Source of the DNA: an uncultured Pseudomonadota bacterium
GTDB lineage: Bacteria; Myxococcota_A; UBA796; GCA-2862545
Reading direction: 5' to 3'
Length of the DNA stretch: 64,000 bases
Assembly: GCA_913061235.1 (NCBI GenBank)
Contig: CAJXTB010000004.1
Coordinates: 248,001 to 312,000 of the forward strand
Below the pieces are notes generated by a model. The model did no database searches. It was given only the letters and a program-made list of their open reading frames with translations, and had not been told where the DNA came from. The translations under genes and the position numbers were made by a program. This document shows, one piece after another, positions 40,500-63,351 of this stretch (positions within the stretch are counted from its first letter, which is position 1; every line of letters begins with the position of its first letter).

Positions 40500-42180
<1,681 letters not shown>

Positions 42181-42199
42181 TGGCCGGGTGCGTAATGCA

Positions 42200-45475: not shown

Positions 45476-47875
45476 ATGCAGCTTGTCATCACCGAAAAGC
45501 CCTCTGTCGCACGGGACCTTGCCCGGGTCCTTGGCGTGCGCGGCAATGCAAATGGCTACATTGATGGTGACGGTATTCGCATCACGTGGTGCATTGGTCA
45601 CCTTGTAGAACTGCAGGAACCTGCCCACTACAATCCCGACTGGAAGCGGTGGTCCCTGGACACCTTGCCCATGGTGCCGGAGTCTTTTGCGTTGCGGCCA
45701 CGAAGGGATGGGGCCGCTGACCAGTGGAAGGTGGTCAAGCGCCTGCTGTCCGACCGTGCGGTCACGTCGGTCGTCAATGCGTGTGATGCGGGCCGCGAAG
45801 GCGAGCTTATCTTTCGCTACGCCTACCAACTCTCCGGAGGCACAGCCCCCGTGAAGCGGTTCTGGGTGAGCTCCATGACGGACGTTGCGATTCGGCAAGC
45901 CTGGAGCAACCTACGGGATGGCGCCCAGTATGACACCTTGGCAGACGCGGCCCGGTGTCGCTCCGAAGCGGACTGGCTGGTGGGGCTGAACGCGACCCGT
46001 GCCATGACCTGCTTGGGTCGAAAGGGGGGCGGAGACGAGCTGCTGAGTATTGGGCGTGTCCAGACGCCAACTCTCGCTATGATTGTGGACCGCGACCTGG
46101 CGATTGACGCCTTTGTGCCGGAGACCTTCTGGCAGGTCCGAGCCGACTTTACCAGCGGTGAAGCGAAGTGGACGGGTACTTGGTTTGGCTCGGATGTTCG
46201 GGCCGAGAACGAGCGCTTTGAGGACACACCGGTCGCCGAGCGATTGTCTGAAGAAGCCCACGCCAAGGCCATTGCGGATGCGGTACGCGGTCAAGATGGC
46301 GTGGTGGAGACCGCAAGCAGTCGCAAGAAGGTCGAGCCGCCGCCGCTGTTGTACGACCTGACGTCCCTTCAGCGTCGCGCCAACCAGCGCTATGGAATGA
46401 CGGCGGACCAGACCCTGAATACGGCACAAGCGTTGTACGAGCGGCACAAGCTGCTGACCTATCCACGTACAGATGCGCGCTTTCTGACGCCTGACCAGGT
46501 GGATACTCTGCCGGGAATTGTTGAAGCGCTTCAGACGCTTCCCCCGTACGCACCGTTCGCAGCGGACATCCTGCAGAGCCCGATTCGTCCAGGCAAGCGC
46601 GTGGTCGACGCCGCTGAAGTCGGAGACCACCACGCCATCTTGCCGACCGACCGTCAGCCGGTACCGGGCCGCCTCTCTCCGGACGAAAAGCGCATCTACG
46701 ACCTAGTCGCTCGTCGTCTCCTTGCGGTCCTGTCGCCACCCGCTGAGCTCCACCTGACCGAGCTTGTGGTGGCGGTGCCTGTACAGTCGTTGCCCGAACC
46801 GCTCGCCAACCCGCCTCGATTTCGTGCCAAGGGCCGCATCTTGGCCGTTCCAGGCTGGCGTGCCGTGGACCCGCCGGGTCGCGAGAAAGACCGCTTGCTG
46901 CCTCCGGTACAGCAAGGTGCGACGGCCACGACCGACAGCAGTGATGTCCACGAAGGACAGACCAAGCCGCCTCGTCCACACAACGACGCGAGCATCCTGC
47001 GCGGCATGGAGCTGGCCGGAAAGACTCTAGACGACAAGGAACTGGCGCGTGCCATGCGCTCGGCGGGTCTAGGAACTCCAGCCACACGTGCAGCGATTCT
47101 CAAGACCTTGATCTCGCGCAACTACATCCGACGTCAAGGCAAGCACGTCCACGCAACGAAGAAGGGACGTCTGCTGATTGCGGCAGTGCCTGTGGATGAG
47201 CTGAAGAGTGCTGAGCTGACGGGCCGCTGGGAGAAGCGGCTGACGGACATTGCCGAGGGGCGCGAGACCGCTGAGGTCTTCATGCGAGACGCCGTGGCAC
47301 GCCTTCGTGACGTCATTGACGCGATTGCTGCGGCTGACCCACCTCCTATGCCGGCTGCGAAGAAGCCAACGGGCCCTGTGCTCGGCACCTGTCCGGTCTG
47401 TGCGACGCCAGTTCGTGATCTTCGCGGCACCTACAGCTGCGAGACGGGGCGGAACTGCACGTTCGTCGTCTTCAAGAAGATGACGGGCCGTGCCATCAGC
47501 GTTCGCATGGTGAAGACGCTGCTGAAAGACGGCAGGACGCCGATTGTGAAGGGCTGGAAGAGCAAGGCTGGCAATCAGTTCGAGGCGGGTCTGGAAATTC
47601 GGGAAGACGGCACGGTTGGGCTGCACTTCGCCCCGCGAACCGAGTCGCGCAGCACCACAAAGACGGTGTCGGCCATGCCTCCGGGGCCACCGACCGACCC
47701 TGTCGGAATGACCTGTCCAAAGTGCCGCCAGGGTCGCATTGTGAAGGGCCGTGCTGCGTGGGGGTGCAATCGCTACCGCCAAGGGTGCCACTTCATCATT
47801 GAGTTCGACCGCGAAGGCCGCCCGGTGTCGGCAGCGGATGCGGCAGCGCGGATTCTTCACTGGCAGTCGTCGTGA
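45476..47875 (+). CDS. topB: DNA topoisomerase III (type IA)
   Basis: The 799-residue protein has a TOPRIM domain (LVITEKPSVARDL at residue 3, NACDAGREGELIFRYAY near 102-119), the type IA core with LTYPRTDARFL near 328 (catalytic Tyr), and SAGLGTPATRA. The C-terminal ~170 residues have two Topo C-terminal zinc-type repeats (CPVCATPVRDL and CPKCRQGRIVKGRAAWGCNRY, with GCHFII). It decatenates and relaxes DNA through single-strand passage. Length is above the 650-700 of core TopB because of the C-terminal repeats. Its stop overlaps modA as GTGA, an unexpected pairing. Confidence 0.94.
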   Translation: MQLVITEKPSVARDLARVLGVRGNANGYIDGDGIRITWCIGHLVELQEPAHYNPDWKRWSLDTLPMVPESFALRPRRDGAADQWKVVKRLLSDRAVTSVVNACDAGREGELIFRYAYQLSGGTAPVKRFWVSSMTDVAIRQAWSNLRDGAQYDTLADAARCRSEADWLVGLNATRAMTCLGRKGGGDELLSIGRVQTPTLAMIVDRDLAIDAFVPETFWQVRADFTSGEAKWTGTWFGSDVRAENERFEDTPVAERLSEEAHAKAIADAVRGQDGVVETASSRKKVEPPPLLYDLTSLQRRANQRYGMTADQTLNTAQALYERHKLLTYPRTDARFLTPDQVDTLPGIVEALQTLPPYAPFAADILQSPIRPGKRVVDAAEVGDHHAILPTDRQPVPGRLSPDEKRIYDLVARRLLAVLSPPAELHLTELVVAVPVQSLPEPLANPPRFRAKGRILAVPGWRAVDPPGREKDRLLPPVQQGATATTDSSDVHEGQTKPPRPHNDASILRGMELAGKTLDDKELARAMRSAGLGTPATRAAILKTLISRNYIRRQGKHVHATKKGRLLIAAVPVDELKSAELTGRWEKRLTDIAEGRETAEVFMRDAVARLRDVIDAIAAADPPPMPAAKKPTGPVLGTCPVCATPVRDLRGTYSCETGRNCTFVVFKKMTGRAISVRMVKTLLKDGRTPIVKGWKSKAGNQFEAGLEIREDGTVGLHFAPRTESRSTTKTVSAMPPGPPTDPVGMTCPKCRQGRIVKGRAAWGCNRYRQGCHFIIEFDREGRPVSAADAAARILHWQSS

Positions 47876-48573
47876 TTGCCTGGCTGCTGCTTGCGGCGTG
47901 CTCGGGTGAACAGCCCATGACCGTTGCTGCAGCGAGCAGCCTACGTGAAGTGCTTCCGGAGCTCGTCACTCTGCACTCGGAGCGAACGGGAGAGCCGGTT
48001 CGCGTCACTTACGGCGGCAGTGGGGCGCTCGCAGCCCAGGTTCGTGCAGGTGCACCGGTCGGCGTGGTGGTGTTCGCAGGCCAGGCTCCCCTGGACGGGC
48101 TGGTCGGCGATGGGCTGATTCAGGGCACACCCGAGGTCGTGGCCACAAACACGCTGGTCTTGGTTGGGGCGGACAACGCGATTCGGGTCGGATTTTCGGA
48201 CCTACACCAGCTGTCGCACATTGCCATCGCAGACCCGGACGTGGCCCCAGTTGGCGCCTACGCTCGCCAAGTTCTGCAGCACTATGGTCACTGGGACGAG
48301 ATTGCGGCGAAGGCAGTCGCTGTGCCAGATGTTGCCGCAAGTCTGGCGTTGGTGAGGCGCGGCGAGGTGCAGGCCGCCGTGGTGTACGGCACCGATGCGC
48401 GCCTTGCACCCGAGCTGTTTGTCTGGGAGGAAGACCCCCTCGTCGACGAACAGGTACCGGTGGTTGTGGCCGCAGGGGTGCCTGCTGGGCCGTCGACCTT
48501 TGTGCAGACGTTGACGAGTGAAGCGGGTCGGTCGGTGTGGACGTCGCATGGTTTCGCGGTTCCGCCCCAATGA
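47872..48573 (+). CDS. modA: Molybdate ABC transporter substrate-binding lipoprotein
   Basis: The 233-residue lipoprotein has lipobox LLLAACS (Cys near residue 10). The mature protein follows ModA: VAAASSLREVLPEL, TYGGSGALAAQVRAGAPV, VVATNTLVLVG, AIADPDVAPVGAYARQVL. It binds molybdate or tungstate with serine and backbone contacts in the first two motifs. It is anchored by lipid rather than free in the periplasm. Translation starts at GTG within the topB stop, and modB overlaps its end (ATGA). Confidence 0.93.
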   Translation: MIAWLLLAACSGEQPMTVAAASSLREVLPELVTLHSERTGEPVRVTYGGSGALAAQVRAGAPVGVVVFAGQAPLDGLVGDGLIQGTPEVVATNTLVLVGADNAIRVGFSDLHQLSHIAIADPDVAPVGAYARQVLQHYGHWDEIAAKAVAVPDVAASLALVRRGEVQAAVVYGTDARLAPELFVWEEDPLVDEQVPVVVAAGVPAGPSTFVQTLTSEAGRSVWTSHGFAVPPQ

Positions 48574-49220
48574 GTGCCTACCCGGTTCAGCTGTCGCTGC
48601 TGGTGGCGCTGCTCTCCACTGCCTTGGTTGCCGTACCGGGCATTGCTCTCGCGGTCTTTTTGTCGGGAAGACGAGGGGTTTCGCGAGTCGTGGTCGACGC
48701 TCTGGTCCTGCTGCCGCTAGTCCTGCCGCCGTCGGTCACGGGGTATGCGCTCATTGTGGTCTTTGGCAGCCAGGGAGTTGTGGGCAGTGCGCTGTCACAG
48801 CTCGGAATTCGGCTCATCTTCACACCCGCAGCGGCCGTCATCGCTGCCGCTGTTGTGGCTCTACCGGTTCTCGTAAAGACCGCAGAACCGGCTCTCGCGG
48901 CCGTTCCGACCGAACTCACAGACGTTGGCAAGACCCTTGGCCTTGGGCCGGTGGCGCTGTTCTGGCGCGTTGTCCTACCGGTTGCTTGGCCCGGCATTCT
49001 CGCCGCGCTTGTCTTGGCTTTTGCTAGGGCGCTGGGTGAGTTTGGCGCCACGCTGTTGTTCGCTGGGAACATTCCGGGCAGCACCAACACCATGCCGATT
49101 GAGCTGTATTCTGCGTTTCAGAGAGGGGACGAGAAGACAGCACTCGCGTACGTAGCGATTCTGACCGCTCTGTCCTTGGTGGTCGTAGTGGTCGCTGCAG
49201 CGCTGACGAGGCGCCGATGA
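48570..49220 (+). CDS. modB: Molybdate ABC transporter permease
   Basis: The 216-residue protein has five membrane helices and the EAA loop VGKTLGLGPVALFWRVVLPVAWPG. It also has LVLPPSVTGYALIVVFG near residue 45 and ALGEFGATLLFAGNIPGSTNTM, both typical of ModB/CysT-type permeases. It forms the inner-membrane channel for molybdate. Length is normal. ATGA overlaps on the modA side, and modC overlaps its stop. Confidence 0.94.
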   Translation: MSAYPVQLSLLVALLSTALVAVPGIALAVFLSGRRGVSRVVVDALVLLPLVLPPSVTGYALIVVFGSQGVVGSALSQLGIRLIFTPAAAVIAAAVVALPVLVKTAEPALAAVPTELTDVGKTLGLGPVALFWRVVLPVAWPGILAALVLAFARALGEFGATLLFAGNIPGSTNTMPIELYSAFQRGDEKTALAYVAILTALSLVVVVVAAALTRRR

Positions 49221-49882
49221 TTTCGGTGGAAGTGACGGTCGACGTGGCCAATTTTCGTGTTCACGCTGCGTTTGAGCACGGCGCGGGTCTGCTGGCGATG
49301 GTTGGGCCGTCTGGCAGCGGTAAGACGTTGACGCTGCGCGCTATTGCCGGGTTGACGCCGGCGACGGGGACCGTGACCCTCCACGGACGGGACGTTGTTG
49401 GTGTTGCCCCTCACAAACGTGGCACCGCGTGGGTCCCTCAAAAGGACGCGCTGTTTCCGTTCCTAGACGTGCTCGGTAACGTCACCTTCGGGCTGCCCCG
49501 AGTGCGGCGGACCTTGGCGGACCCTAGGGTTGCCCTGCTGTGTGAAGAAGTGGGTATCGCGCACCTGCTCAAGCGCCGGGTTGTTGACCTGTCTGGCGGT
49601 GAACGTCAGCGTGTTGCCCTCGCCCGAGCCCTCGCTTGTGAACCGTCCATTTTGCTGCTCGATGAGCCCTTCGCCGCGCTCGATGACGCGAGTCGTACCG
49701 AGCTTGGCCGCCACCTGCGGACTGCGGTAGATTCACGCGGACTGTGCGCCATCTTGGTGAGCCACGACTCGCGTGAGGTGCGTCGTTTGGCGGATTCTGT
49801 GCTGCCGTTCTCTCGCGGTCAGGCAGGTCAGGTACAGTCGGTCATGGAGTGGGCAGCCACTCTACCTAAGGAGACGTCGTGA
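49217..49882 (+). CDS. modC: Molybdate ABC transporter ATP-binding protein, short form
   Basis: The 221-residue ATPase has Walker A GPSGSGKT (about residues 30-37), Q-loop VPQKDALFPF, signature LSGGERQR, Walker B ILLLDEP and H-loop SHD. It ends soon after the ATPase core; the C-terminal mop/TOBE domain of E. coli ModC (about 350 residues), which binds molybdate and senses saturation, is absent. The ATPase activity should be intact, but not that feedback. Overlaps modB and the GST gene by four bases each. Confidence 0.9.
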   Translation: MISVEVTVDVANFRVHAAFEHGAGLLAMVGPSGSGKTLTLRAIAGLTPATGTVTLHGRDVVGVAPHKRGTAWVPQKDALFPFLDVLGNVTFGLPRVRRTLADPRVALLCEEVGIAHLLKRRVVDLSGGERQRVALARALACEPSILLLDEPFAALDDASRTELGRHLRTAVDSRGLCAILVSHDSREVRRLADSVLPFSRGQAGQVQSVMEWAATLPKETS

Positions 49883-55167: not shown

Positions 55168-55182
55168 TGGCACGATGCTTGC
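55168..55182 (+). promoter_or_regulatory. Sigma-54 promoter of the type II secretion operon
   Basis: TGGCACGATGCTTGC matches TGGCAC-N5-TTGC at every conserved base, with GG at -24 and GC at -12 separated by exactly ten bases. The transcript should start near 55194. That excludes the ATG at 55175 as the gspC start and supports the TTG at 55223, which has CGGAGG upstream. Transcription would need RpoN and an enhancer-binding ATPase. Confidence 0.85.
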
Positions 55183-55222
55183 TCTACGTTACTCGCCGCC
55201 ACTCGAATCGGAGGTTGGCTTC

Positions 55223-56119
55223 TTGAAACGCGCTGCACCATGGATCATTGTCGGGGTTCTCACCCTGCTCGTCGCATTGACTGCCTTTGGCGTCAATCGC
55301 GTGATTCGTCGGCAGTTAGCACTGCCGGACGACGCTGAGCAGGTAGACATTGTGGCGGTCGGTACGCCGGACGCCACAGAGGGCGGACGACCTGAACGTC
55401 CCCCAACCATCAAGAGCAAGCGTCAGTACATTGACGGCATCTTGGCCCGGAACATCTTCGATGCATCGGCCATTGGGCGTGCCTCTGAGGTCACCGACTC
55501 GTCGACAACACTGGCTGACCTGAACTTGAGCCTCATCGGCACCTTGGTGGCTGTGCCATCCCGCTACAGCGCGGCCTACATCACCGAGAGCGGCGATGAA
55601 GCAGAGGCCCTGTCGTACGGCATTCAAGACATGATTGAAGATGCGACCATCATCGCGATTGGCGTTGACAAGGTCACTCTTCGCCGGGGTGACGACACGG
55701 TAGAGACGCTCACCATGGGCGAAGACGCACCGGCGCCAACGCCTGCGGCTCGCCCGACCAGCAGCAATGACGAAGAAGGCGTCGAGAAGATCGACGACAA
55801 CAACTACGTCATCGACCGCGAGCTTGTGGACCGCTACCTCACCGACCTAGACGCGATTAGCCGCCTGGGCCGTGCCATTCCGCACCGTGGTTCGGATGGC
55901 GAGATCGATGGCTACCGTCTCTCCGGTGTGCGTCGCCGCTCGATTGGCGACAAGATTGGCATCAAGAACGGTGACATCGTCCACTCCGTCAACGGGGCAA
56001 CCCTCGACTCGATGCAGGGGGCCATGGCGGCCTACCAGACGCTTCAGAGCGAGAGTCGGTTCACCTTTGAAGTCACTCGTCGCGGTCAACGCCAGACCAT
56101 GTCCTACGAGGTCAAGTGA
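55223..56119 (+). CDS. gspC: Type II secretion protein GspC
   Basis: The 298-residue inner-membrane protein begins with a membrane segment (about residues 4-23, APWIIVGVLTLLVALTAFGV). A homology region follows with ARNIFDASAIG and LSLIGTLVAVPSRYSAAYI. A C-terminal PDZ-like domain (about 195-298) has GYRLSGVRRRSIGDKIGIKNGDIVHSVNGATLDSM. GspC links the inner-membrane platform to the secretin. The TTG at 55223 has CGGAGG 8 bases upstream and lies downstream of the predicted transcript start. The next gene starts inside its stop. Confidence 0.9.
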   Translation: MKRAAPWIIVGVLTLLVALTAFGVNRVIRRQLALPDDAEQVDIVAVGTPDATEGGRPERPPTIKSKRQYIDGILARNIFDASAIGRASEVTDSSTTLADLNLSLIGTLVAVPSRYSAAYITESGDEAEALSYGIQDMIEDATIIAIGVDKVTLRRGDDTVETLTMGEDAPAPTPAARPTSSNDEEGVEKIDDNNYVIDRELVDRYLTDLDAISRLGRAIPHRGSDGEIDGYRLSGVRRRSIGDKIGIKNGDIVHSVNGATLDSMQGAMAAYQTLQSESRFTFEVTRRGQRQTMSYEVK

Positions 56120-56880
56120 TGACCGTCGCTCGCACATGGATGACGGCCGCGTTGGCTGCTGGCACGTTGAGTATCGGCGGCTCGACCGGGTGTAGTGCTG
56201 ACAATGTTCCTGTCGACGAAGCGGTGACGTTTACGCTCAATGGGACCTACACGGTGGAGAATCTAGCCACGTTCTCGCACGACAACCTCGATGTTCGCAT
56301 TGAAGCGCTTGACCATCGGGACATGGGCCGGACGGTCCACTTCTCAAGCACCGAAGAGCCGCTCAGCATCGAGCTCTGCGCAGACCTCATCGTTCAGACC
56401 CTGACCGAGCAGGGGCTTCCAGCTGGGCGTCACGGCGACCTCATCCTCATTGAGCGAACACGTCCGGTTCGTGAGACCTCTTCACGTAGACCTGGTGCTC
56501 GGTCTCGTGAACCTATCGAGCCTGCGGACCATGAGGGTCACATCACTATGGTGGACGAAGGGTCGTACACCATCGACCGTTCTTTCATGGTTGCTGAGCT
56601 GACGGACCTAGATGGTCTCATGCGCCAAGCGCGCATCATTCCGCACCACAACACCGAAGGCAACACCGTTGGATACCGCATCTCCGGCATCCGTCGTGGT
56701 CGCACCGGCGACGCCCTCGGCTTTCAAAATGGCGACATCCTTCACTCAGTCAGTGGCCAGACCCTGGACTCGATGGAGGGCGCCATGGATGCCTACATGA
56801 TTCTCAAGGACGCGGACGAGTTCACCGTTGAACTCTCCCGTCGCGGCCAACGCCAGACCCTTTCCTACGCAGTCCAATGA
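56119..56880 (+). CDS. Hybrid of a secretin N0-like domain and a GspC-type PDZ domain
   Basis: This is a 253-residue exported protein, possibly a lipoprotein (GGSTGC near residue 25, not a perfect lipobox). Residues about 38-115 (FTLNGTYTVENLATF, then VHFSSTEEPLSIELCADLIV) match the N0 domain at the start of the following gspD (YTLNGTYTVAQLIDFF, then VQFIGRSTVSYGEAYQAML). After a basic linker, residues about 145-253 match the C-terminal domain of gspC (YTIDRSFM, GYRISGIRRGRTGDALGFQNGDILHSVSGQTLDSMEGAM). N0 and the GspC inner region normally bind each other from separate proteins. The gene starts in the gspC stop (TGATG) and overlaps gspD (ATGA). Confidence 0.85.
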   Translation: MTVARTWMTAALAAGTLSIGGSTGCSADNVPVDEAVTFTLNGTYTVENLATFSHDNLDVRIEALDHRDMGRTVHFSSTEEPLSIELCADLIVQTLTEQGLPAGRHGDLILIERTRPVRETSSRRPGARSREPIEPADHEGHITMVDEGSYTIDRSFMVAELTDLDGLMRQARIIPHHNTEGNTVGYRISGIRRGRTGDALGFQNGDILHSVSGQTLDSMEGAMDAYMILKDADEFTVELSRRGQRQTLSYAVQ

Positions 56881-59363
56881 CGACACCAACACACGAGTAC
56901 CCCCGCATGCGCACTTCGCTCGCTCGCCTCACACGCCCCCTGTTGGTGGCGACCCTCCTTGGACTCCCCATGGTGGCTTCTGCCCAGAGCCCGGATGGCC
57001 CTGAAGGAACATCGCCCGTCAGTCAGACGGGGCCAACTGCCCAACGCGGTGGTCGCTACACACTCAATGGCACCTACACCGTTGCCCAGCTCATCGACTT
57101 CTTCGCGTCGCGCTTTGAGCAGACGATTCTGGTCGACGACCCACGGACGTTGACGGACACCGTCCAGTTCATCGGGCGCAGTACTGTCAGCTACGGTGAG
57201 GCCTACCAGGCAATGCTCGCTGGTCTCGAGGTCAAGGGCTACAGCATCTACGAAGTGGGCGGTATTACCCACATTGTGAAGAGCTCTGAGGCAAGCCAAG
57301 CGCCCATCCGCGTTGGTGAAGGCGGAGACATTCCCTTCACCGCGTCCTACGTCACGCAGATCATCTCGCTCGACAGTGTGGCGGTGGCAGACGTTCAGCA
57401 GGTCATCACGAGCATGGCCAGTGCGGACGCCAAGGTTGTGGCCTACGCGCCGACCAACACGCTCATCCTCACGGACTCTGCGTACAACCTGCGCAAGATC
57501 TATGACGTGCTTCAGCGCTTGGACGTTGCCTCTCCGAGCAGCAGCCTCAAGATTTACCCCATCGCATTCGCATCGGCGTCTGAAGTGGCTCAGATGATTG
57601 AGCAGATCTATGGAACCGCTGCGGGTGGTAGTCAGGACTCTGCGACGGCTGCAACGACACGTCGGGAGACCGCGGCAGAGCGTCGTCGTCGTCGTCGTCG
57701 TGAACGGGAAGCGGAAGCTGCCCCAGCTACGAGCGCCAGTGGCGTCACCGCGGGTAAGGCATCGGCCTTCATCAGCAAGGTCATCGCGGATGAGCGGACG
57801 AACAGTCTCATCGTTCTCGCCAATGAGACCGGCCATGAGAAGATTCTTGGGTTGATTGGCGAGATTGACGTCGACGTTGACCTCACCAGCCGGTCGCAGA
57901 TTCACGTGGTCTACCTAGAGCACGCCAAAGCAGACGAGATTGCAACGGTTCTGTCCAACCTGTCGGGTACTGGCAACGATTCGGGCGCAGCGGCGGGCAC
58001 GCGAGCCACCCGACAGACGGCGGCTCAGCGAGCAGCAGCCACGGCAGACGCAGCCGAGGGCGAGGGCGAGAGCGCCGGTGGCGTACTCGCAGCCTTCGAC
58101 AGCGGCATGCGCATCACCAGTGACGAGAACACCAACAGCCTGGTCATCATTGCCAGCAATGACGACTTCCGCATTGTGGAATCGGTCATCAGCAGCCTAG
58201 ATGTTCGCCGCAAGCAGGTGTACGTCGACTGCGTCATCCTTGAGATTGCCAGCGACGACAGCAGTGAGCTGGGCATTGGCTACCACGCACCGGGCTTTGA
58301 CCCAGACGGAAGCGGTGGCGGCTTCGGCATTGGCTCCGCTCAGCTCGGCGCCAGTTCTTTGGGCTTGTCTCAGGACTTGCTCACCGGTCTCGCTCTTGGC
58401 GTGTTCGGAGAGAGCATCGAAGTGCCGATTTCCACTGGCGCCGGCACCACCACGAACCTGTCCATCCCGTCCTTCGGCATCGTGTTGAGCGCGCTGAAGA
58501 CCAACTCGCTGGTCAACATTGTCAGCTCGCCGTCCCTCATCACCTTGGACAACCAAGAGGCTGAAATTACGGTAGGCCGCCGGGTTCCGTTCCCGACGCA
58601 GACCACGCTTAGCCAGGTCGGTGGCGCGTTTCAGAGCTTCCAGCGAGAAGACGTCGCAACAACCCTTCAGGTCACGCCGCGCATCAACTCGTCGGACGAA
58701 GTCACCTTGGAGCTCACCGTTGAAGTGAGTGACATTGAAGAAGATGATGCCGGTCTCAACGCGGCTGGCGGCGGTCCCGTCACTAGTAAGCGCGAAGTGA
58801 CCACCACCGCGCTCGTCAGCAACAACAGCACCATGGTGCTGGGTGGCTTGGTTGGTAGCACCGAGAGTGAAGTCGAGACCAAGGTGCCAATCCTTGGCGA
58901 CCTTCCGCTCATTGGCAACCTCTTCCGCGGCTCGCGCAAGACTGCGCGTCGTACCAACCTGCTCATCTTCCTCACGCCTCACATCATCGATAGCCAAGAC
59001 GACATCGAAGAAGTCATGCGTATCAAGATGGCCCAGCGCTCCGAGTTTGAACGCCGGTTCTACGGTAAGTCTCAGGCAGAGCAGGAAGAAGCCCTTCAAG
59101 AGTTGCTGTCCTACTCCATGAACTTCCCGGACCGCGACTCCGAGTACGTGGACCAAGAGTACGTGCCCACGTCTGCCATTGCTCCCCGCGAGCTGACGGA
59201 CGAAGAGGTCGAACGGTACATGATTCCTGGCACCCCGAACTCCGGCCAGGTTGTCCCGGGTGATGACCTCGAAGACGAGACCCGTCGCGCCATTGAGGAA
59301 GCACTCGCAGTTCCCGTTGAACCACGCGTTGAGCCGACTGACGGCGAAACGGAAGGGGAGTAG
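56877..59363 (+). CDS. gspD: Type II secretion secretin GspD
   Basis: The 828-residue outer-membrane secretin has a signal peptide (ends LPMVASA near residue 36), N0 (about 58-132), N1 to N3 modules (140-440; each with a motif like TNTLIL, TNSLIV or TNSLVI), and the secretin core. The core includes VYVDCVILEI, VGRRVPFPTQ, and VPILGDLPLIGNLFRG near 675. Two low-complexity loops interrupt the N-domains, one Arg-rich (AAERRRRRRRERE near 262) and one Ala/Gly-rich near 370. It forms the outer-membrane channel. The ATG overlaps the hybrid gene's stop. Confidence 0.95.
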   Translation: MTTPTHEYPRMRTSLARLTRPLLVATLLGLPMVASAQSPDGPEGTSPVSQTGPTAQRGGRYTLNGTYTVAQLIDFFASRFEQTILVDDPRTLTDTVQFIGRSTVSYGEAYQAMLAGLEVKGYSIYEVGGITHIVKSSEASQAPIRVGEGGDIPFTASYVTQIISLDSVAVADVQQVITSMASADAKVVAYAPTNTLILTDSAYNLRKIYDVLQRLDVASPSSSLKIYPIAFASASEVAQMIEQIYGTAAGGSQDSATAATTRRETAAERRRRRRREREAEAAPATSASGVTAGKASAFISKVIADERTNSLIVLANETGHEKILGLIGEIDVDVDLTSRSQIHVVYLEHAKADEIATVLSNLSGTGNDSGAAAGTRATRQTAAQRAAATADAAEGEGESAGGVLAAFDSGMRITSDENTNSLVIIASNDDFRIVESVISSLDVRRKQVYVDCVILEIASDDSSELGIGYHAPGFDPDGSGGGFGIGSAQLGASSLGLSQDLLTGLALGVFGESIEVPISTGAGTTTNLSIPSFGIVLSALKTNSLVNIVSSPSLITLDNQEAEITVGRRVPFPTQTTLSQVGGAFQSFQREDVATTLQVTPRINSSDEVTLELTVEVSDIEEDDAGLNAAGGGPVTSKREVTTTALVSNNSTMVLGGLVGSTESEVETKVPILGDLPLIGNLFRGSRKTARRTNLLIFLTPHIIDSQDDIEEVMRIKMAQRSEFERRFYGKSQAEQEEALQELLSYSMNFPDRDSEYVDQEYVPTSAIAPRELTDEEVERYMIPGTPNSGQVVPGDDLEDETRRAIEEALAVPVEPRVEPTDGETEGE
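57681..57701 (+). repeat. CGT trinucleotide repeat in gspD
   Basis: Seven near-complete CGT units encode the Arg run in the N-domain loop of GspD. A slipped copy would add or remove whole arginines without frameshift. Confidence 0.8.
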
Positions 59364-62459: not shown

Positions 62460-62867
62460 ATGTCACGATTGAAGTACCGAACCTCTGCTCATCCGTCCCG
62501 AGCGGGCATGACTCTCGTCGAGATTGTGGTGGTTGTCGCCATTCTTCTGGTGCTGACCAGCGTGCTGTCATTCGGCATCTTCAACATCTACAAGACCAGC
62601 TATACCCAGGTCGCATCGCTTGAAATCAGGCGTCTAGGCGACCAAGTCGTGATTCACGAGCTCGTCCATGACGCGGTTCCCACCCAGGCCGAAGGTCTTG
62701 CTGCTCTGTCTGACGACGGCCAGACTCCGACGGACTCGTGGCGCAATGCCTACGAGTACGACGCAGATGCTCCCGTGCGGGCTGGCTTTGACATCACCTC
62801 CCATGGTTCGGATGGCGAGCCGGGCGGCAGTGGAAACGACGCGGACATCCATCACTCCGACCTCTGA
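62460..62867 (+). CDS. gspG: Type II secretion major pseudopilin GspG, first copy
   Basis: The 135-residue pseudopilin has a prepilin leader cut before Met17 (RAG/MTLVEIVVVV), Glu at mature position 5, and a hydrophobic helix to about residue 40. Its C-terminal part (ITSHGSDGEPGGSGNDADI) matches the Ca-binding loop of GspG (xSxGxDGxxGGxGxxADI). The central segment lacks the usual DPWGNPY and reads DSWRNAYEYD. It is the first of two tandem copies and lies 163 bases after gspF. GGAG lies upstream of the ATG. Confidence 0.88.
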   Translation: MSRLKYRTSAHPSRAGMTLVEIVVVVAILLVLTSVLSFGIFNIYKTSYTQVASLEIRRLGDQVVIHELVHDAVPTQAEGLAALSDDGQTPTDSWRNAYEYDADAPVRAGFDITSHGSDGEPGGSGNDADIHHSDL

Positions 62868-62937: not shown

Positions 62938-63351
62938 ATGCTTCGCAATCGCCTTCAATACCGCAACGCCGCAGATGCCGAGCGCGCCGGTATGACCCTC
63001 GTCGAAATCATCGTCGTTATCGCCATCATCCTGGTTCTGACCAGCATTTTGGCCTTCGGCATCTTCTCTGTCTTCGGACAGGCCAAGGCTGACGCAGCCA
63101 AGGTTCAGATGAGCCGCCTGGAGTCCCGCGTTCAGATCTATATGGCGCGCAACGGCTCGGTACCGAGCGGCAGTGACGGCCTTGCTGCCGCTGTTGCCCC
63201 GGACGAAGTGCCGAATGACCCTTGGGGCAACCCGTACCGCTACGTCACTCCCGGTGCGAATGGCAAGGCCTACGACATTGTGTCGCTCGGCTCTGACGGC
63301 GCCGAAGGCGGCACCGGTGAAGCCGCTGACATCCGCTTGTCGGACAACTAG
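62938..63351 (+). CDS. gspG: Type II secretion major pseudopilin GspG, second copy
   Basis: The 137-residue pseudopilin has leader cut RAG/MTLVEIIVVI, Glu5, and the full GspG motifs: DGLAAAVAPDEVPNDPWGNPYRY and VSLGSDGAEGGTGEAADIRLSDN, including the Ca-binding loop. It is the more canonical copy and likely the main shaft subunit. GGAGGAG lies 7-8 bases before the ATG. The first copy ends 70 bases upstream. Confidence 0.95.
   Translation: MLRNRLQYRNAADAERAGMTLVEIIVVIAIILVLTSILAFGIFSVFGQAKADAAKVQMSRLESRVQIYMARNGSVPSGSDGLAAAVAPDEVPNDPWGNPYRYVTPGANGKAYDIVSLGSDGAEGGTGEAADIRLSDN

Follow-up and report, generated by a model that had tools for sequence, protein, structure and literature searches.

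The window analyzed here is a 64-kb stretch of DNA from a 7.2-Mb genome of 72 contigs that is estimated to be 99% complete, and the nearest named relatives found were uncultured "Deltaproteobacteria" MAGs. On the + strand, an intact reading frame running from ATG at 56119 to TGA at 56880 (253 aa; GTG at 56116 is an alternative start) sits between gspC (55175-56119) and gspD (56877-59363). As the initial annotation had reported, this frame, referred to here as the hybrid gene, overlaps both neighbors: TGATG (or GTGA) contains both the gspC stop and the start of the hybrid, and ATGA contains both the hybrid stop and the annotated start of gspD. Its 254 codons contain no stops, and its GC content by codon position (GC3) is coding-like. 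The features of the locus are as follows:

55175..56119, +, gspC (TM, HR and PDZ), the parent of the PDZ half; NF041515, 194 bits, above the cut-off of 150
55430..55690, +, HR domain of gspC, residues 86-172, the proposed docking partner of the N0-like half; Pfam T2SSC at 86-172, E 2e-5
55769..56116, +, gspC residues 199-314, the pre-PDZ segment and PDZ domain, i.e., the copied part; 52% identity to hybrid residues 138-254
56119..56880, +, hybrid gene; open reading frame, with GTG 56116 as a possible start instead
56119..56193, +, putative export signal of the hybrid, with Cys26 in a weak lipobox (STGC); loose PROSITE-like pattern
56224..56469, +, N0-like domain of the hybrid, residues 37-118; match to own GspD, and model built with N0 rows
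56230..56274, +, beta1-alpha1 block FTLNGTYTVENLATF, where the N0-like domain is best kept; 10/15 identical to own GspD
56470..56526, +, linker of the hybrid, residues 119-137; low confidence, unstructured in the model
56527..56877, +, GspC-type PDZ domain of the hybrid, residues 138-254; matches to NF041515 and own GspC, and model
56877..59363, +, gspD secretin, the probable parent of the N0-like half; TIGR02517, 467 bits, above cut-off
57057..57284, +, N0 domain of gspD, residues 61-136; Pfam PF21305 at 70-133, E 3e-5, and alignment
62460..62867, +, GspG1, the second lineage-specific tandem duplicate in the operon; 45% identity to GspG2
62938..63351, +, GspG2, the conserved major pseudopilin; comparison and tree with GspG1

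The hydrophobic stretch at the N-terminus of the hybrid is short and weak, and its end resembles a lipobox. The lipobox at Cys26 matches a loose PROSITE-like pattern and leaves the strict pattern [LVI][ASTVI][GAS]C unmatched, and the protein is possibly lipid-anchored via Cys26. Elsewhere in the window, a TPP riboswitch scoring above the Rfam gathering score lies at 42092-42185 (- strand), and three consecutive genes at 47872-49882 resemble a molybdate-type ABC transporter (binding protein, permease and ATPase) when their open reading frames are read by eye.

The GspC-type PDZ domain

Residues 138-254 of the hybrid aligned with the pre-PDZ segment and PDZ domain of the genome's own GspC at 52% identity over 117 aa (E 6e-40). 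The hybrid also matched positions 175-311 (i.e., the last 137) of the GspC_delta profile NF041515 with an E-value of 6e-35, its whole-protein score of 121.6 bits being below the 150-bit cut-off. Codons are shared with gspC at 39 of the 56 identical residues of the PDZ domain, while 25 would be expected from the codon usage of the operon; because this sharing exceeds the expectation, common DNA descent of the two sequences is still visible. The modelled PDZ domain has pLDDT values of 91-98 over most of its length, and its closest counterparts in the PDB are the PulC and EpsC PDZ domains (Z 9.6 and 9.4, respectively). All eight of the PDZ columns that are invariant among 28 relatives are kept in the hybrid, which is itself one of the aligned rows. 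In the PDZ tree, the hybrid is sister to its own GspC (support 93/91) on a branch about 20-fold longer (1.15 vs. 0.058); placements outside own GspC (p-AU 0.15) or with the orphan lipoproteins described below (p-AU 0.21) were not rejected. Given the identity, the profile match and the shared codons, the likeness to GspC that had been noted earlier stands, and the second half of the hybrid is proven at the sequence level to be a copy of the PDZ region of its own GspC. The copy contains no match to the T2SSC (HR) model of Pfam, and similarity to own GspC begins only at residue 138.

Other GspC-like proteins were also found. A second one of the same genome, encoded at L003:1111-1926 on contig C2, has a hydrophobic N-terminal segment, a proline-rich linker and a PDZ domain, and no HR domain was detected in it; a relative occurs in L032. 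Two congeneric genomes (G005 and G006) have second gspC-like paralogues, at L028 and L029, which are mutual sisters.

The N0-like domain

Hybrid residues 39-76 (FTLNGTYTV...TVHF) aligned with residues 61-98 of own GspD (E 5e-5), and the Smith-Waterman score between the hybrid and the N0 domain of own GspD was equalled by none of 5000 shuffles. The TLNGTYTV motif that had been described as shared with the following gspD is indeed common to both. It had also been suggested that later spacing is shared. The N-terminal half of the hybrid is in register with N0 over ~72 columns (hhalign P 0.019), but the part after the FTLNGTYTVENLATF block is weak when taken alone, as 866 of 5000 shuffles did as well against the N0 domain of own GspD. 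An N0 profile of relatives that excluded own GspD gave p ~0.05 against the hybrid. Within its own genome, the best non-self match of the N-terminal half in the family-level search was the N0 domain of GspD (E 0.22). The domain profile search that the initial annotation had proposed recovered the GspC PDZ domain but not N0: the hybrid was not listed by the Pfam N0 model (PF21305) at E-values up to 5. No match to PF00263 or PF03958, i.e., to the secretin and N1-N3 domains, was found in the hybrid.

Identity to own GspD is 10/15 in the FTLNGTYTVENLATF block and 11/61 elsewhere (Fisher p 5e-4, which is post hoc as the block was chosen after inspection). When own GspD was compared to 17 orthologues, identity was not concentrated in the beta1-alpha1 block. 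Most N0 core positions of the relatives are changed in the hybrid. AlphaFold2 run without N0 rows gave low confidence in the N-terminal half and placed a strand (72-78), a helix (85-98) and a strand (110-114) at the positions of beta3, alpha2 and beta5 of N0. With N0 rows included, which makes the test non-independent, an N0-like core with a pLDDT of ~90 was obtained, whose closest PDB structures are N0 domains of GspD (Foldseek E 3e-3, Z 8.4). An HR domain was also considered as the identity of the N-terminal half and was rejected, the match to own GspC being non-significant. Judged mainly from one block and from a model built with N0 rows, residues 37-118 of the hybrid are likely a diverged N0 domain.

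Alternatively, only the beta1-alpha1 stretch (approximately residues 38-76) might come from gspD, with residues 77-137 being other sequence, and the hybrid would then be an exported PDZ protein with an N0 fragment that acts via its PDZ domain or via PDZ competition alone. Consistent with this are the lack of significant N0 similarity after residue 76, the lack of a Pfam N0 match, an N0-tree branch at its ceiling and the weak alignability of these residues to the end of the HR domain and linker of GspC. The length that is in register and the N0 elements beyond the block, together with the confident, albeit non-independent, model built with N0 rows, argue for a whole N0 domain, and we consider a mere fragment unlikely.

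Origin and constraint of the hybrid gene

In relatives with readable loci, gspD directly follows gspC. Since gspC, [signal, N0, PDZ], gspD is the junction order expected of a single tandem duplication, the hybrid most likely arose, as judged from the sequence, by one such event that joined the end of gspC to the start of gspD. The duplicated stretch would have run from the part of gspC encoding the PDZ domain to the part of gspD encoding the signal peptide and N0 at its start, leaving an in-frame junction, N0 and then PDZ, between both parent genes. This step, which the initial annotation had also proposed, is well supported because each half is closest to one flanking gene and the order is N0-PDZ; it is read from order and similarity, the breakpoints being unreadable. 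Subsequently, the copy would have shed the TM and HR domain of its GspC parent along with the GspD ring domains, remained intact and diverged quickly, and this step is supported. Together, the two steps are probable. The N0 half is more diverged than the PDZ half (dN 1.10 vs. 0.45, with the N0-tree branch at its ceiling), which fits a single event poorly unless the N0 half was under looser constraint; otherwise a second event is needed. Thus, of the earlier reading, the origin by duplication holds, with the PDZ half proven and the N0 half likely.

Among the matches listed from 20 family, 62 order and 378 phylum genomes besides its own (21, 63 and 379 genomes with it; other genera only), no second protein with both halves was found, and all the listed matches to the hybrid query start at residue 98 or later. 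Two scans of genome contigs also found no orthologues; in some of the MAGs searched, contigs break near gspC. The hybrid is a lineage-specific gene, seen in one genome, and no N0-PDZ protein was found in the literature searched. Absence from relatives coupled with decay had been named as an observation that would count against the hybrid. The gene is absent among the relatives searched but shows no decay, having no stops, coding-like GC3 and a pairwise dN/dS of 0.34 against gspC. It should be noted that the hybrid's own dN/dS may be nearer 0.6, because almost all the amino-acid change falls on the hybrid branch. Under neutrality, the chance that the PDZ half would be free of stops is 0.04-0.2. 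Given the intact frame, the coding-like GC and the dN/dS of 0.34, the hybrid is likely functional, a view that rests on one genome.

The competing view, that the hybrid is a duplication by-product in the course of being lost, translated due to its operon position, weakly constrained and without a function in secretion, is consistent with the lack of a counterpart among the matches listed from the relatives searched, with evolution 20-fold faster than that of GspC and with the neutral stop-free chance given above. It fits less well with 254 intact codons, the pairwise dN/dS, the retention of every one of the eight invariant PDZ columns and a model that folds confidently, and we regard it as improbable. 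An assembly artefact is ruled out by a copy that differs at most residues and has its own coding-like GC3, and only one 20-base direct repeat, at 75% identity, is shared by the copy within the window.

The operon contains a further duplicate. GspG1 is sister to GspG2 in the tree (branch 2.53 vs. 0), and the relatives read have one gspG where the source operon has two. As a duplicate of the major pseudopilin, GspG1 is specific to this lineage and has evolved very fast.

Possible role and comparison with known systems

The HR domain of GspC pairs with the N0 domain of GspD, mainly via HR strands 1-3 and beta1 and alpha1 of N0 (PMC3169554). The conservation of the hybrid is concentrated in the block that belongs to this part of the GspC-GspD interface, which suggests that the docking edge may have been kept to bind GspC. 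The PDZ domain of GspC is needed for some substrates; in Vibrio and Dickeya, it is known to bind or sort certain substrates (PMC12369372). Given the kept docking edge and this need for the PDZ domain, we favor an adaptor: the hybrid would be exported to the periplasm, perhaps lipid-anchored, where its N0-like domain would bind the HR domain of GspC as GspD N0 does and the protein would offer a second PDZ domain. As the genome has only one GspD, no other T2SS is at hand. The best reading is a periplasmic, possibly lipid-anchored, accessory subunit of the T2SS, for which we infer the docking and function, and the hybrid may be a new lineage-specific subunit of this kind. Duplication, divergence and docking on GspC taken together remain tentative, their joint chance being somewhat below even. 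In Klebsiella, N0 sites outnumber GspC (15 vs. ~12; PMC6882859), so spare HR domains are unexpected, which counts against an adaptor.

The hybrid might instead be a regulator or assembly factor: as a decoy, its N0 would occupy the HR domain of GspC ahead of the secretin's arrival; alternatively, the protein would be incorporated into the N0 ring or cap it. The N0 domains form a close C15 ring, each able to bind one HR domain (PMC6882859), and GspB/OutB is an extra protein with a copied contact domain that scaffolds the secretin (PMC9239104), both of which would suit such a role; the sequence cannot tell the gating or decoy roles, also raised by the initial annotation, from an adaptor, and we consider a regulator quite unlikely. 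Likewise quite improbable is a new kind of T2SS subunit that was built in a single step from contact domains of the two envelope-bridging proteins, the inner-membrane subunit GspC and the outer-membrane pore GspD. Such an N0-PDZ adaptor would compete with the secretin for GspC and thereby tune which GspC copies, or what number of them, arrive at the pore, and the GspG duplication would belong to the same remodelling.

If the favored adaptor reading is true, the machine gained a subunit by one tandem duplication that fused parts of two interacting proteins, and the hybrid would be a natural tool to separate the GspC-GspD contact role from that of the PDZ domain, whose function in GspC is still poorly understood (PMC12369372).

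Compared with GspC (NF041515, PF11356; PulC, EpsC and OutC), the hybrid shares the C-terminal pre-PDZ segment and PDZ domain (52% to own GspC), but it lacks HR, has a putative signal peptide or weak lipobox where GspC has its anchoring TM and scores below the NF041515 cut-off. With GspD N0 (PF21305; 3EZJ, 4JTM and 3OSS) it shares the TLNGTYTV block, the order of elements and, in the model built with N0 rows, the predicted fold, whereas it lacks N1-N3 and the secretin domain, differs at most N0 core positions and has no Pfam match. GspB/OutB/ExeB is the closest parallel in idea, in that an extra T2SS protein carries a copy of a partner's contact domain: GspB/OutB has its own HR domain and binds N0 (PMC9239104). 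GspB has TM and HR without N0 or PDZ, while the hybrid has no T2SSC/HR match, and the two are non-homologous.

The GspC PDZ domain has been reused repeatedly within this order, seemingly not beside T2SS genes. Orphan lipoproteins at L025:1420-1962, L017:1450-2073 (- strand) and L037:1576-2211 and 2157-2906 have a lipobox-like N-terminus, a coiled coil and a GspC-type PDZ domain, with L037 encoding two such proteins in tandem; no T2SS genes lie beside them where the flanks were read. Like the hybrid, they are small exported proteins that reuse the GspC PDZ domain, but theirs is joined to a coiled coil in place of N0 and the tree does not group them with the hybrid as sisters, although, as given above, such a placement was not rejected. 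The domains and the machine are already known, and what is new about the hybrid is the way in which these domains are combined.
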